Part shown: in pieces, positions 27,151-31,795 of the stretch | How positions within the stretch are numbered: position 1 is the stretch's first letter | How the letters are laid out: every line of letters begins with the position of its first letter | Origin: Candidatus Eremiobacter antarcticus | GTDB taxonomy: Bacteria; Vulcanimicrobiota; Vulcanimicrobiia; Eremiobacterales; Eremiobacteraceae | NCBI GenBank assembly: GCA_003244105.1 | Contig: QHBK01000003.1 | Span: 354,004 to 418,003, forward strand | Direction: 5' to 3' | DNA: 64,000 nucleotides | Program-made: the position numbers and the translations under genes | The notes under the pieces: generated by a model | The model's input: only the letters and a program-made list of their open reading frames with translations | Databases searched by the model: none | Told to the model about the DNA's origin: nothing

Positions 27151-29634
27151 TCATCCGCGCAGTGTCGCGCCGAACGCCTGCGCCAGCGTCGCCACCACGG
27201 CGCCTTGCAAACTGTTTGCTTCTTCGTCCGTGATGGTTCCATCAGCTTTGCGGAAGGTCAGCGTGAGCGCGACGCTCTTCTTGCCTTCCCCGATCTGCCG
27301 TCCGCTATATTCGTCGAACGCCGTCACATGTTCCAGGTGGCCCGCACCGCTGGCGGCCGCCGCCTCGACAACATCCCCGGCCGGCACGGCCTCGTCGATC
27401 ACGACCGCGATATCGCGCTTGACAGCGGGGAACTTCGGCAGCGGCCGGTACTGTTCGACCGGCTTGCGGCGCGGGATGTTCTCCAGATACAACGCAAACG
27501 CATAGGTCGCGAGCGGCAGTTCGTATGCAGACGCAAGGCGCGGATCTAAACGGCCGAATTTTGCGACGGTCATCCCATCGCTTGTGATTATGCCCGCCGC
27601 TCCGGGATGAAAGTACATGCGGGCGCGCGCCGCAGACCGCAGCGGACCGGCGATGAAGGTGCGCAAGATCGATTCCAGCTCGCCCTTCACGGTCAGCAGG
27701 CGCTTGTCCAGGCTCTGGCGGCCGGCTGATTCCGGCGCATCGGAAAATGCTGCGAGCCCGCACGCGGATCGCCACTCGAGGACATCACTATCGACGTACG
27801 CACCGTCGCGGGCCTGCGAGGGCTTTCCGTTTGCCGGCAACGGCCGGAAGACGTGCCCGATCTCGAAGAGCCGCAGCTCCCCATCGCACTGTGGCCACCA
27901 TTGCGCGGCCGACATCAGAACGCCCGGAAGCAGGCTTGGCCGCAGGAACCGGTGGTCTTCGGAAAGAGGATTTACGACGGCAACCACGTCCTCCCAATAC
28001 TTCAAGCCCGAGCGCTCCCACGCGCTGATCACGCGCGACCCCTGCAGCGCGACGCTGACGATCTCGTGATAACCGAGTGCCGCAAACGTGTCGGCGAGTT
28101 TCGTCTCTTGGTCGAAGGCGCTTTCGTCTATGGCTTGCGGCGCAGCGACGGTCCGCTCGGCGGCGATCGCTTCGTAGCCGATGCCTCGCGCGATCTCCTC
28201 GATGATGTCGACCTCTTCACGGACGTCAGTTCGCCAGTAGGGGATCGTGACCGACAGCTCGCCGTTCTCGTGAGAGTCGATGCCTATGGGGTCGAGCGCC
28301 GCGCGCATCTGGCCGCTGGAAAACGACGACCCCAAGACCGCGTTCACGCGCGCTGGGCGGACGCGAACGGAGTGTGGTGCTTGGGGGGCTTCGCCGCACG
28401 CCTCCACCCGTGAAGCCGCCCCGCCGTCGCCGGATAAGAACGCGGCAGCAAGCCTTCGCCCCTGCTCGGGCAGCTCGAGCGGCAAGTCTTTTTCGTGACG
28501 CAAAGCGCCTTCAGTGCGCAAGCGCAGCGCGAGCGAGGCACGGCGGACCGCGGAACCGACGAAGTTGGCCGACTCGACGAAGACGTTTTTGGTGGCGGCC
28601 GTGACGGCGCTCGCCGCTCCTCCCATGATGCCGGCGATCCCGATCGCTCCTTGCGCATCTGCGATCACCGGCGTCCCCGGGGCCAACGTACGCGCAACGC
28701 CGTCCAACGTCGTGACCGCTTCGCCATCGAAGGCGGCGCGCGCGATGATGCGTCCGCCGCGTATCGCATCCGCGTCGTAGAAATGCAGAGGCTGACCCGT
28801 CTCCAGGAGGGCGTAGTTGGAGATGTCGACGATCGAGTTGATGCTGCGCACTCCGGCTGCTTGCAATCGGAGAACCATCCAGATCGGCGATCGGCCGGTC
28901 TTGACGCCGCGGAAGAACTGCCCGAGCAATCGCCGGCAAACGGCGGGATCGCCGATCTCAACCGTGATCGGCGAGTCATAAGAACCGGCCTGGTCCTCGG
29001 GCGCCGCGGCGCGGAACGTCGCCCCGACAGCTGCCGCAGCTTCACGCGCGAGTCCCGCGATCGATAGGCAGTCCGGCCGGTTGGAGGGCACTTCGACGTC
29101 CAACACCGCCTCCGGAAGCCGGGCGGCTTTCCAGAAGTCCTCGCCGACCGGTGCGTCGTCTTCCAAGATCACGATGCCGTCTTCATACTCGCCCGGAAGC
29201 GCCAGCTCGTCCGGTGAGCACATCATGCCCACCGATTCCACACCTCGCAGCACGCTTCGCTCGATGCGCTTTGTGCCGCGCCCTCCATTTCCGGCCGAGT
29301 TTGCAGAAGCGCTTTTGACCACCTCATCGCTCGTCCGCTCGAAGACGACCGCTCCGGGTAGCGCGACTGGGATCTTATCGCCGGCCCGAACGTTTTGGGC
29401 GCCCGTGACGATCTGCAAGCGCTCGCGGCCGACATCAACGCTGCTCAAGAACAGCCGATCAGCGTTTGGATGGCGTTGCAACGCCTCGATACGGCCGACG
29501 ACGATGTGGTCTGGCCTTGGCTGTTCGATGACGCTTTCGACGGTGAGGCCGCGCGCAGTCAGGCCTGCCGCGAGCGCGTGCGCGGACGCGTCGCTTTGCA
29601 TGAAATCGCGCAGCCACGAAAGCGGAACACGCAC
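27151..29634 (-). CDS. pheT: Phenylalanine--tRNA ligase beta subunit
   Basis: Large subunit of the (alpha-beta)2 phenylalanyl-tRNA synthetase, 827 residues. Domains in order: a tRNA-binding EMAP-type domain (about 40-160; IVVGRIEALQRHPNADRL and IVTGAQNVRAGDKIPVALPGA), the B3/B4 editing region (VEVPSNRPDCLSIAGLAREA), B5 (RVRPARVNAVLGS), the core catalytic-like domain, and a C-terminal anticodon-binding FDX-ACB domain (KFPAVKRDIAVVIDEAVPAGDV). The start is directly adjacent to the pheS stop, with no gap, as in most pheST operons. Confidence 0.97.
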   Translation of the reverse strand: MRVPLSWLRDFMQSDASAHALAAGLTARGLTVESVIEQPRPDHIVVGRIEALQRHPNADRLFLSSVDVGRERLQIVTGAQNVRAGDKIPVALPGAVVFERTSDEVVKSASANSAGNGGRGTKRIERSVLRGVESVGMMCSPDELALPGEYEDGIVILEDDAPVGEDFWKAARLPEAVLDVEVPSNRPDCLSIAGLAREAAAAVGATFRAAAPEDQAGSYDSPITVEIGDPAVCRRLLGQFFRGVKTGRSPIWMVLRLQAAGVRSINSIVDISNYALLETGQPLHFYDADAIRGGRIIARAAFDGEAVTTLDGVARTLAPGTPVIADAQGAIGIAGIMGGAASAVTAATKNVFVESANFVGSAVRRASLALRLRTEGALRHEKDLPLELPEQGRRLAAAFLSGDGGAASRVEACGEAPQAPHSVRVRPARVNAVLGSSFSSGQMRAALDPIGIDSHENGELSVTIPYWRTDVREEVDIIEEIARGIGYEAIAAERTVAAPQAIDESAFDQETKLADTFAALGYHEIVSVALQGSRVISAWERSGLKYWEDVVAVVNPLSEDHRFLRPSLLPGVLMSAAQWWPQCDGELRLFEIGHVFRPLPANGKPSQARDGAYVDSDVLEWRSACGLAAFSDAPESAGRQSLDKRLLTVKGELESILRTFIAGPLRSAARARMYFHPGAAGIITSDGMTVAKFGRLDPRLASAYELPLATYAFALYLENIPRRKPVEQYRPLPKFPAVKRDIAVVIDEAVPAGDVVEAAAASGAGHLEHVTAFDEYSGRQIGEGKKSVALTLTFRKADGTITDEEANSLQGAVVATLAQAFGATLRG

Positions 29635-30657
29635 CTACTGGAACTGCTCCACGAAGGCGGGCTGGTTTTCCGTGAGCAGGCGGATATCGTCGATGTTGTG
29701 CCGCACGAGCGCGATGCGCTCGATGCCCAAACCGAACGCCCAACCGGTGTACAGCTCCGGGTCATAGCCTGCGCTGCGCAGCACATGAGGATGCACCATG
29801 CCGCTGCCGCCCATCTCGAGCCAGCCGGCGCCGCCACACGACCGGCATCCGCTGCCCGCGCAGACACCGCAGGAGACGTCGACTTCGGCCGACGGTTCGG
29901 TGAATTGAAAATAAGAAGGCCGGAACCGCGTCCGCCGCTCGGGCCCATACAGATGCCGGCAAAGATCGCCGACGAACCCCTTGAGATGCGCGAACGTGAC
30001 CCCGCGACCGACTTGCAGCCCTTCGAACTGATGGAACATGAATGCATGGCGCGCATCGAGCGCATCCCGACGGTAGACCTTGCCGGGTACGAGGATCGCG
30101 ATGGGTGGTGGGTGCTGGAGCATCGCGCGCACCTGCATGGGCGAGGTGTGGGTCCGCAAGAGCGCCCCCGAGGGGAGGTAGAATGTGTCCATCGCCTCGC
30201 GCGACGGATGGTCGGCGGGAATGTTCATGGCTTCGAAGTTGTAATATTCGCTTTCGACTTCGGGCCCCAGAACAACCGCGAAGCCGCGGCTGCGAAAAAA
30301 GCTCACGACGTCGTTGAGGGTCCGCCGCAGTATGTGGATGGAACCACGCTTGGGCGCAGTCGCGGGAAACGTGACGTCGTAGGTCTTGGCAAGCTCCGAG
30401 CGCAGTCCGGCGTCGCGCAGCCGAAGCGCTGCGCTCGCGAACGAAGATTCAATCCGCAGCTTGCTTTCGTTTGCGCGCTGCCCGAATTCCGCGCGCTCTT
30501 CTTTGGGAAGCTTGCCGACGCCGGCCATGATCTGCGAAAGCCGGCCGCCCTTGCGTCCTAAGACGCTCGTGTACAAGGCGTCGAGCTCTGCTTGCGTGTT
30601 AAGGGCCGCCGTGCGCGCGGCGACCTCGTCTTCCAGGTCCTTGAGCTGATCGGTCAA
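29635..30657 (-). CDS. pheS: Phenylalanine--tRNA ligase alpha subunit
   Basis: Catalytic subunit, 340 residues. An N-terminal coiled-coil arm (about 1-85) precedes the class II core. Motif 2 region: RTHTSPMQVRAML, KVYRRDALDARHAFMFHQFEGL. Motif 3 region: GWAFGLGIERIALVRHNIDDIR. FQFTEPSAEVDVSC with the nearby CRSCGGAGWLEMGGSGMVHP also fits PheS. The upstream leader contains a terminator-like hairpin 41 bases before the start, so expression probably depends on readthrough. Confidence 0.97.
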   Translation of the reverse strand: MTDQLKDLEDEVAARTAALNTQAELDALYTSVLGRKGGRLSQIMAGVGKLPKEERAEFGQRANESKLRIESSFASAALRLRDAGLRSELAKTYDVTFPATAPKRGSIHILRRTLNDVVSFFRSRGFAVVLGPEVESEYYNFEAMNIPADHPSREAMDTFYLPSGALLRTHTSPMQVRAMLQHPPPIAILVPGKVYRRDALDARHAFMFHQFEGLQVGRGVTFAHLKGFVGDLCRHLYGPERRTRFRPSYFQFTEPSAEVDVSCGVCAGSGCRSCGGAGWLEMGGSGMVHPHVLRSAGYDPELYTGWAFGLGIERIALVRHNIDDIRLLTENQPAFVEQFQ

Positions 30658-30689
30658 TGTTTCGGGCGCCTACGCGAGCTTTGGTGCAC

Positions 30690-30722
30690 GAAAAGAACGT
30701 GGCCGCTCGAGGTGCGGCCACG
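30690..30722 (-). terminator. Leader terminator/attenuator upstream of pheS
   Basis: Perfect nine-pair stem CGTGGCCGC (30722-30714) with GCGGCCACG (30706-30698), a seven-base loop, then a T-rich run TTCTTTT on the minus strand. Only about 40 bases then remain before pheS, with no obvious promoter, so pheST would need readthrough. That fits attenuation control of the synthetase operon. Confidence 0.7.
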
Positions 30723-30774
30723 GATGATACCACGTAGTATTGCTGCGCCTTACAGCGCGGGCACCCACGATATC

Positions 30775-30876
30775 CTAACGGGAATCTTGAGGGGCCATCC
30801 GCTTGTAAAGCAAGTATGCTTTGACCGAACCGGTGGTGAGAAACAGCTTCCAGAACAGCTCCGGAGATAGTAACAG
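30775..30876 (-). CDS. YqzL-like small protein
   Basis: A mini-gene of about 33 residues between trmH and pheS. The product includes LSPELFWKLFLTTGSVKAYLLYKRM, which closely fits the YqzL family pattern (W-x-x-F-x-x-T-G-x-x-x-x-Y-L-L-x-K). A strong ribosome binding site, AAGGAGG, sits nine bases before a CTG codon (30876-30874); no ATG, GTG or TTG is available at the right distance, so I propose a CTG start. A sigma-70-type promoter lies upstream. Function of YqzL is unknown. The alternative is a leader peptide for pheST; it contains three Phe codons. Confidence 0.55.
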   Translation of the reverse strand: MLLSPELFWKLFLTTGSVKAYLLYKRMAPQDSR

Positions 30877-30934
30877 AGTAACCGACCTCCTTGCGTTCTC
30901 AAACCGAGCTTGTTTCCGGGTTCTACCGGGCCCC

Positions 30935-30964
30935 AGTATAGCATAGGAGCGTCGCCAAAAACAA
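30935..30964 (-). promoter_or_regulatory. Promoter for the yqzL-like/pheST unit
   Basis: On the minus strand TTGTTT (30964-30959) and TATACT (30940-30935) are 18 bases apart. It lies directly after the trmH stop (30986) and gives a leader of about 270 bases before pheS, which contains the mini-gene and the hairpin. Confidence 0.55.
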
Positions 30965-30985
30965 GGCTGCACGGCCTCTTGACTT

Positions 30986-31795
30986 TCACGTCGTATTCGT
31001 TCCACGCGCGCGGGCGAACTCGTACATCAAGATCGAGCCGGCCACAGCGGCGTTCAGCGAATCCACACCGCTGCGCTGCGGAATGGCAACCGAGGCATCG
31101 ATGTCCGCGCGAGGTATGTCTTCGAGGCCGCTCCGCTCCTGGCCGATCAAAAGCGCGGCTCGCTCGGGCGGTTCGAAAAGACGGACGTCTTGACCCGAGG
31201 CCTCCGCCGCGATGACGAACAGGCGCGCCTCCCGGACGGCGCTGACGAGCTGCTGCCATTTTGCATATTGGAAGATCGGCACTCGGAAAAGCGCGCCCAT
31301 GGAGGCGCGCACGACCTTGTCGTTATAGGGCTCGACCGCCGTGGGTCCAAAGCACACGGCCCGCGCGCCGAATGCATCGGCGCTGCGGATCAGGGTTCCA
31401 GCGTTGCCGGGGTCGGCGATGTCGGGAAGCGTGACGACGAGCACGGCGCCGCTGCTGGGCAATCGCGAGGGCAAGCGCTCGACGGGCTCGTGGACGAAAC
31501 GCACGACCCCCACGATGCTCTGGGGAGTTTTGGTCTGTGCGAGCGATTCGAGCGTGCGCTGGTCTACCGACCATACTTCACAGGCGCCGGCCAGACGCGA
31601 TTGCAGTTCCTCGCTTGCCGCTGCGCCTTGCGACATGAAGACTTGCTCGACGACGGCACCGCCGTCAACGGCCGCCGCCAGCACGAGCGGCCCCTCCACG
31701 AGGAAACACCGCCTTTGCAGACGGTGTTTTTTCTGCTGCAGGAGACGCGCGCTGCGGACCGCGGCGTGATGGAAGCCCGCGGAACCGGCGCTCAC
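30986..31795 (-). CDS. TrmH/SpoU-family RNA 2'-O-methyltransferase
   Basis: SAM-dependent RNA ribose methyltransferase of the SPOUT class, 269 residues. The N-terminal substrate-binding part has RRCFLVEGPLVLAAAV. The catalytic knotted domain shows motif 1 DIADPGNAGTLIRSADAFGA (Asn and Arg), motif 2 ALLIGQERSGLED, and motif 3 SGVDSLNAAVAGSILMYE. The target (rRNA or tRNA) cannot be decided from sequence. It begins with GTG nine bases after the rplT stop, as part of the infC-rpmI-rplT operon; the RNA methyltransferase is a frequent neighbour of rplT. Confidence 0.9.
   Translation of the reverse strand: MSAGSAGFHHAAVRSARLLQQKKHRLQRRCFLVEGPLVLAAAVDGGAVVEQVFMSQGAAASEELQSRLAGACEVWSVDQRTLESLAQTKTPQSIVGVVRFVHEPVERLPSRLPSSGAVLVVTLPDIADPGNAGTLIRSADAFGARAVCFGPTAVEPYNDKVVRASMGALFRVPIFQYAKWQQLVSAVREARLFVIAAEASGQDVRLFEPPERAALLIGQERSGLEDIPRADIDASVAIPQRSGVDSLNAAVAGSILMYEFARARGTNTT

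Follow-up and report, generated by a model that had tools for sequence, protein, structure and literature searches.

The head of the pheST unit in Candidatus Eremiobacter antarcticus is read here, with fair confidence, as a single promoter followed by a CTG-started yqzL gene and an intrinsic terminator that transcription would have to read through to reach pheST. This arrangement resembles the pheST operon of Bacillota without its T-box, and any control of it would most likely be exerted at initiation via a GTCAAG element. The reading draws on sequence and comparison, from which come the gene itself and the selection acting on it, the gene order, the terminator, the lack of both a T-box and, in the gap before pheS, anything resembling a promoter, and the conservation and uniqueness of the GTCAAG element. 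All coordinates refer to the window, i.e., the whole 64,000-nucleotide stretch of DNA that was analysed, and all features described below lie on its minus strand.

Organization of the yqzL-pheST locus

Sequence, open reading frames, and Pfam matches give the minus-strand gene order infC, rpmI, rplT, trmH, yqzL, pheS, and pheT. The trmH/SpoU-family rRNA methyltransferase gene (30986..31795; assigned by Pfam) lies upstream of yqzL and ends the infC-rpmI-rplT-trmH run, and the only GTCAAG copy in the window (30978..30983) stands 2 nt past its stop codon. The yqzL-pheST promoter (30935..30964) consists of TTGTTT (30964-30959), an 18-nt spacer, and TATACT (30940-30935), with an extended TATGC ahead of the -10. 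It is followed by a Shine-Dalgarno sequence, AAGGAGG (30886..30892), located 9 nt upstream of the CTG, and by yqzL itself (30775..30876; Pfam PF14006), which comprises 33 codons from the inferred CTG start (30876-30874) onward, the TAG stop (30777-30775) being included in its coordinates. An intrinsic terminator (30689..30722), formed by a nine-pair hairpin (30722-30698) and the T-rich tail TTCTTTTCGT, separates yqzL from pheS (PheRS alpha; 29635..30657, TTG start), which begins 40 nt beyond the end of the hairpin and is followed by pheT (PheRS beta; 27151..29634), both being assigned by Pfam. The source genome contains a single copy of pheS. In a plasmid collection, infC and pheS gave just weak matches and the leader gave none.

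The first-pass annotation had described a promoter, an AAGGAGG site, a 33-codon frame, a hairpin with a T tail, and pheS, and each of these parts was recovered where it had been placed. The span assigned to them (30690-30964) is correct as well, and the GTCAAG element immediately before it (30983-30978) is best grouped with it. That annotation included neither this element nor the parallel with the trmH-yqzL-T-box-pheST arrangement of Bacillota. A strict promoter scan of the window left the yqzL-pheST promoter unscored; the promoter is supported because its -10 is kept across related loci, at least five of the six positions matching in 87 of the 94 loci with enough upstream sequence for this count, compared with 24.5 expected from shuffles. 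An AAGGAG-type site also precedes yqzL in relatives.

YqzL as a conserved small protein

The frame, previously proposed to be a YqzL-like mini-gene, scores 30.3 bits against the Pfam family PF14006 (YqzL), which exceeds the curated gathering cut-off of 27. Its likeness to the family extends to the core residues, the invariant W, F, G, Y, and Y being found in an alignment of 35, and to a two-helix hairpin predicted by AlphaFold2 with a mean pLDDT of 82. An NCBIfam search with the frame returned no match, no solved structures were found for YqzL, and a genome-wide search revealed no other YqzL in the source genome. Within the phylum Candidatus Eremiobacterota, YqzL was detected at E <= 0.001 in 115 of 149 genomes and in 76 of the 85 good-quality ones, a distribution that, together with the Pfam score, bears out the mini-gene. 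The trmH-yqzL-pheS order is near-universal in the class to which the window belongs, wherever both neighbours are visible. The 19 class genomes that gave no Pfam YqzL match were all searched for pheS: the three with an assembled trmH-pheS junction do contain yqzL (L120, L121, and L123), L122 and L124 carry a partial yqzL at a contig break, and in the remaining ones the start of pheS is missing or there is no match at all.

Comparison of related loci indicates that yqzL is under purifying selection at the protein level. Over 763 pairs of such loci, pN/pS is 0.19, rather than near one, and the changes counted at the first, second, and third codon positions (2446, 1645, and 7122, respectively) are dominated by the third. 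In distant families of the phylum, YqzL is also encoded away from pheS, beside other genes, and in two Bacillota loci its neighbours are era/recO-like (identified by eye). Since YqzL is found in surroundings other than pheS, it is best regarded as a protein in its own right, which would act in trans and be more than a mere leader peptide. The frames that adjoin yqzL in place of pheS look, by eye, LptA-type or endonuclease III-type in L078, L118, L119, L083, and L116. Two tandem, differing yqzL copies are located ahead of pheS in L002, L004, and L033, which represent three distant families of the phylum.

The Bacillus subtilis member of PF14006 presumably lies between era and recO, and the window yqzL differs from it in its position before pheST and its inferred CTG start. 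Literature searches on YqzL described no role for it among the matches listed, the name match being an unrelated silage study, and the matches listed for PF14006 were Plasmodium gene names.

The probable CTG start codon of yqzL

By reading, the window contains no in-frame ATG, GTG, or TTG from the inferred transcript start to the YqzL core; the in-frame start that the list of open reading frames gives for yqzL is a GTG at 31005, which lies ahead of the promoter. In relatives, the usual start is an ATG located seven or eight codons ahead of the invariant W. The start classes obtained for 102 loci were ATG in 94, CTG in two, GTG in one, and no recognised Shine-Dalgarno in five, the GTG class being L112, where the script picked the nearer GTG though a CTG is present. 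The window, L027, and L112/L113, which represent three genera of one family, have a CTG at codon -8 and no ATG; L131 and L132 are named records for L027 and L112. This CTG lies 9 nt past AGGAGG and takes a position one codon upstream of the ATG used in sister genera (L021 and L011). The codons that flank it vary among the three genera (GTT/AGC/GTC, ACT/ACA/AAA, and TTA/CTA/CAA), whereas the CTG is constant. L112 contains, in addition, a GTG at codon -3 and a TTG at codon -2 relative to the conserved W, and its upstream start is favoured because the codons before GTG/TTG differ mainly by synonymous changes. With the same codon kept in three genera and no better start available, the CTG put forward in the first-pass annotation is probably the only plausible start of yqzL in the window, and initiation at CTG would apply to three genomes.

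An alternative is that yqzL is untranslated here and, lacking an ATG, is a decaying pseudogene that survives solely as leader sequence, which we consider very unlikely. The window and L027 do lack an ATG, GTG, or TTG start, but selection on the peptide persists in the CTG lineage, where synonymous and nonsynonymous changes in the three pairs stand at 6:3, 11:2, and 11:4 (11:2 for the window and L112); moreover, the strong Shine-Dalgarno is held at 9 nt, and the frame is intact in all three CTG genomes.

CTG initiates poorly in E. coli. According to a 2024 cryo-EM study, wild-type and M1 initiator tRNA both pair inefficiently with CUG (PMC11497404), so that expression of YqzL initiated in this way may be low. 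As in other CUG-initiated bacterial genes, the codon occupies the start position after a strong Shine-Dalgarno; the present case differs in that the CTG is conserved over three genera and precedes the sister-genus ATG by one codon.

A conserved terminator and proposed readthrough into pheST

In a set of 99 loci found via YqzL, in which loci without YqzL cannot show up and from which the duplicates L032 and L102 were removed, as was the upstream member of each tandem pair, a hairpin with a T tail lies between the yqzL stop and pheS in 84, compared with a mean of 1.4 in shuffles of the same stretches. The scan recognised no terminator in the other 15 loci, several of which have, by eye, a hairpin with a loop above the limit of 11; L071 has no hairpin, and L009 and L010 have a weak T-tail. 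The median gap between the hairpin and pheS, computed for 78 of the 84 loci after six without a clear pheS start or with a negative gap were dropped, is 27 nt, and 43 loci have a gap shorter than 35 nt. Only three of these 78 gaps contain a -10-like site with at least five of six matches, and TANNNT at leaderless spacing before pheS likewise occurs in three, compared with 8.5 expected.

Because the gap carries no promoter-like site, pheST would require either readthrough of the terminator or a promoter of some other kind. The earlier proposal that yqzL and pheST share a message and that pheST needs readthrough agrees with the conserved terminator, the near absence of a separate -10-like site between the hairpin and pheS, and the single copy of pheS, a combination suggesting partial termination followed by readthrough into pheST. 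It is also conceivable, though unlikely, that the terminator just closes the infC-rpmI-rplT-trmH-yqzL run, at the end of which it does stand, and that pheST has a promoter of its own, missed by the consensus or overlapping the hairpin. Promoters of a non-standard kind would evade the scan, but the scarcity of both -10-like and leaderless TANNNT sites and the shortness of the gap argue against this view and in favour of readthrough.

A Shine-Dalgarno-like site precedes pheS in only 16 of the 78 loci, though the gene often starts right after the terminator, and this scarcity implies that translation of pheS could involve the hairpin region.

Parallel with the T-box pheST operon of Bacillota

A scan of named genomes yielded 69 yqzL loci, 22 of which have Bacillota-type titles, with L185 among these being probably mislabelled; trmH lies upstream and pheS downstream of yqzL in 17 of the 22. 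An Rfam scan of 14 of these 17 loci located a T-box immediately after yqzL in 12 (L136, L141-L144, L150, L161, L167, L169, L173, L189, and L198) versus none of six Eremiobacterota loci, and the T-box starts 3 to 72 nt past the yqzL stop in the 11 of the 12 for which this distance was computed. The Bacillota promoters upstream of yqzL range from TTGTTTTTT to TATGCTATAAT, and the window promoter has the same form. Since yqzL stands between promoter and T-box in Bacillota, it would be outside T-box control there.

The T-box pheST operon of Bacillota (Dethiobacter, Halanaerobium, and others) and the present locus therefore have in common the order of trmH, a TTGTTT-TATGCTATAAT-type promoter, yqzL, a conditional or partial stop, and pheST. 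They differ in the stop, which is a T-box of ~220 nt in Bacillota and a bare terminator in its Eremiobacterial counterpart, and in the GTCAAG element, which is present in the Eremiobacterial class versus none of the 21 Bacillota-labelled loci examined. On this comparison, the Eremiobacterial layout looks like the trmH-yqzL-T-box-pheST arrangement of Bacillota minus the T-box, a correspondence that is new here; among the matches listed in a literature search on the T-box with pheS, nothing concerned YqzL.

The leader might still contain a T-box or some other riboswitch that senses tRNA, in degenerate form or as a new class, given that the Bacillota T-box occupies exactly the yqzL-pheS interval, but we regard this as highly improbable. 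The Rfam search at gathering cut-offs gave no match in the window, where no T-box appeared up to an E value of 5, and no T-box (RF00230) was found before pheS across 149 genomes of the phylum. Sub-cut-off T-box matches were obtained in three of these 149 genomes, all from the distant family f16, and none reached the cut-off. A T-box would also be too long for the leader, as the interval between the yqzL stop and the hairpin is usually 23-60 nt compared with 219 model positions. T-box-like pairing, raised as a possibility in the first-pass annotation, thus found no counterpart in the window or before pheS in the phylum.

The three sub-cut-off matches (L200, L201, and L202) are the only T-box-like matches of the phylum; the frame behind them, which gave no pheS match, is presumably TrpB-like. 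Two further Rfam matches were taken as chance, namely BjrC1505 (20.2 bits, gathering 50), for which the matched stretch contains the terminator, and snoTBR17 (12.3 bits, gathering 40).

Tests of leader-peptide attenuation

Classical ribosome-mediated attenuation would have the FFWKLF-like block of a yqzL leader peptide sense charged tRNA-Phe, with a stalled ribosome allowing an antiterminator to form. Phe and Trp codons near the yqzL start and a terminator downstream are compatible with such a device, and control of this kind is known for gamma-proteobacterial pheST (PMC1262725). We nevertheless consider it quite unlikely here, as three RNA tests found no switch. In 81 of the 84 leaders (the three without a recognised -10 being omitted), the mean pairing probability of the terminator was 0.94 in free RNA, 0.95 with a ribosome at W, and 0.97 with a ribosome at the stop, and a ribosome at W brought it under 0.5 in just one leader. 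In the same 81 leaders, the 5' arm of the terminator had no consistent partner, the partner lying in the 5'UTR in 44, in the intergenic part in 22, and in the ORF in 15. The RNAalifold consensus of the class leaders, built from 61 of 69 after removal of near-identical ones and leaving out f1, f2, and distant leaders, contains the terminator alone, with no conserved alternative helix. None of the three approaches, all of which describe equilibrium thermodynamics and do not reach kinetic or protein-mediated mechanisms, found a mutually exclusive antiterminator tied to ribosome position. In addition, the Phe-rich motif is characteristic of the family and occurs too where YqzL is not beside pheS.

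The likeness to gamma-proteobacterial pheST attenuation is that a short frame with Phe codons, a terminator, and pheST follow one another; the difference is that the frame here belongs to a conserved protein family and that no competing antiterminator was found. Accordingly modified, the earlier view of the pheST leader as a regulated attenuator retains the conserved terminator and the need for readthrough, and loses T-box and leader-peptide control; the terminator itself may be regulated or a fixed leaky one. In terms of sequence, the attenuation claim appears to come down to a conserved terminator without control visible in the RNA.

The GTCAAG element upstream of the promoter

GTCAAG precedes the promoter, downstream of the trmH stop, in 90 of the same 94 loci (those of the class and related ones, with sufficient upstream sequence), compared with 2.7 expected from shuffles. 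Two copies are present in 47 loci and three in 12, and the reverse complement occurs in none of the 94. Its spacing is 27 in most loci, 26 in one genus, and 9, 10, 12, or 21 in others, and the consensus of the element is aaaaGTCAAGACT. Relatives such as L041, L072, and L073 provide examples of GTCAAG repeats whose orientation and spacing upstream of the promoter are fixed.

Genome-wide searches were made with several forms of the element. The 11-mer AAGTCAAGACT occurs exactly once in each of 14 genomes out of 16, its coordinates placing it at the yqzL-pheST promoter every time, and the 15-mer TGTCAAGACTTGGCG once each in five of nine genomes. A 16-mer with two mismatches allowed was found at the promoter in all eight genomes, with three other matches compared with five in the control, and the tandem form at the yqzL-pheST promoter in all 20, with 26 matches elsewhere compared with 25 for the reversed control. 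The pattern GTCAAG-N23 to 27-TATACT was present in seven of ten other genomes, each time at the yqzL promoter by coordinates, with two further matches elsewhere. It has no match in the window's own genome, because the single GTCAAG copy stands further upstream there, at a greater distance from the -10 than most relatives show.

Among the genomes tested, the GTCAAG element is thus essentially limited to a single location in each genome of the Eremiobacterial class, which makes it a candidate dedicated operator for the yqzL-pheST promoter. A more speculative and rather unlikely extension is that this one-locus operator serves a dedicated regulator that replaces the T-box as the sensor of Phe charging; in its boldest form, the regulator would be PheRS itself, with YqzL as a small partner. 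The beta subunit of Thermus PheRS reportedly binds and loops DNA (Lechler and Kreutzer 1998; Dou et al. 2001), and PheRS is a candidate GTCAAG binder solely because DNA binding is on record and no other gene in these genomes seems to carry the site. A literature search combining PheRS DNA binding with autoregulation found nothing.

Proposed model and implications

In the model favoured here, one promoter (30964-30935) would produce a message with YqzL first and pheST after it. YqzL, a 33-residue predicted helical hairpin, would be initiated at CTG behind the strong Shine-Dalgarno. Part of the transcripts would end at the intrinsic terminator, and pheST would be expressed only from polymerases that read through, the bare terminator setting the ratio of YqzL to PheRS. 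Control of the amount, if any, would most likely take place at initiation via the GTCAAG element or elements just upstream of the promoter.

That YqzL leads pheST in two phyla, before a T-box or a bare terminator, may link this small protein to the supply of phenylalanine-tRNA and opens its role to testing. The locus would also represent a naturally occurring aaRS operon that has no tRNA sensor yet keeps the stop signal, and it offers, in addition, a promoter element limited to a single site in each genome and a conserved, putative CTG start.
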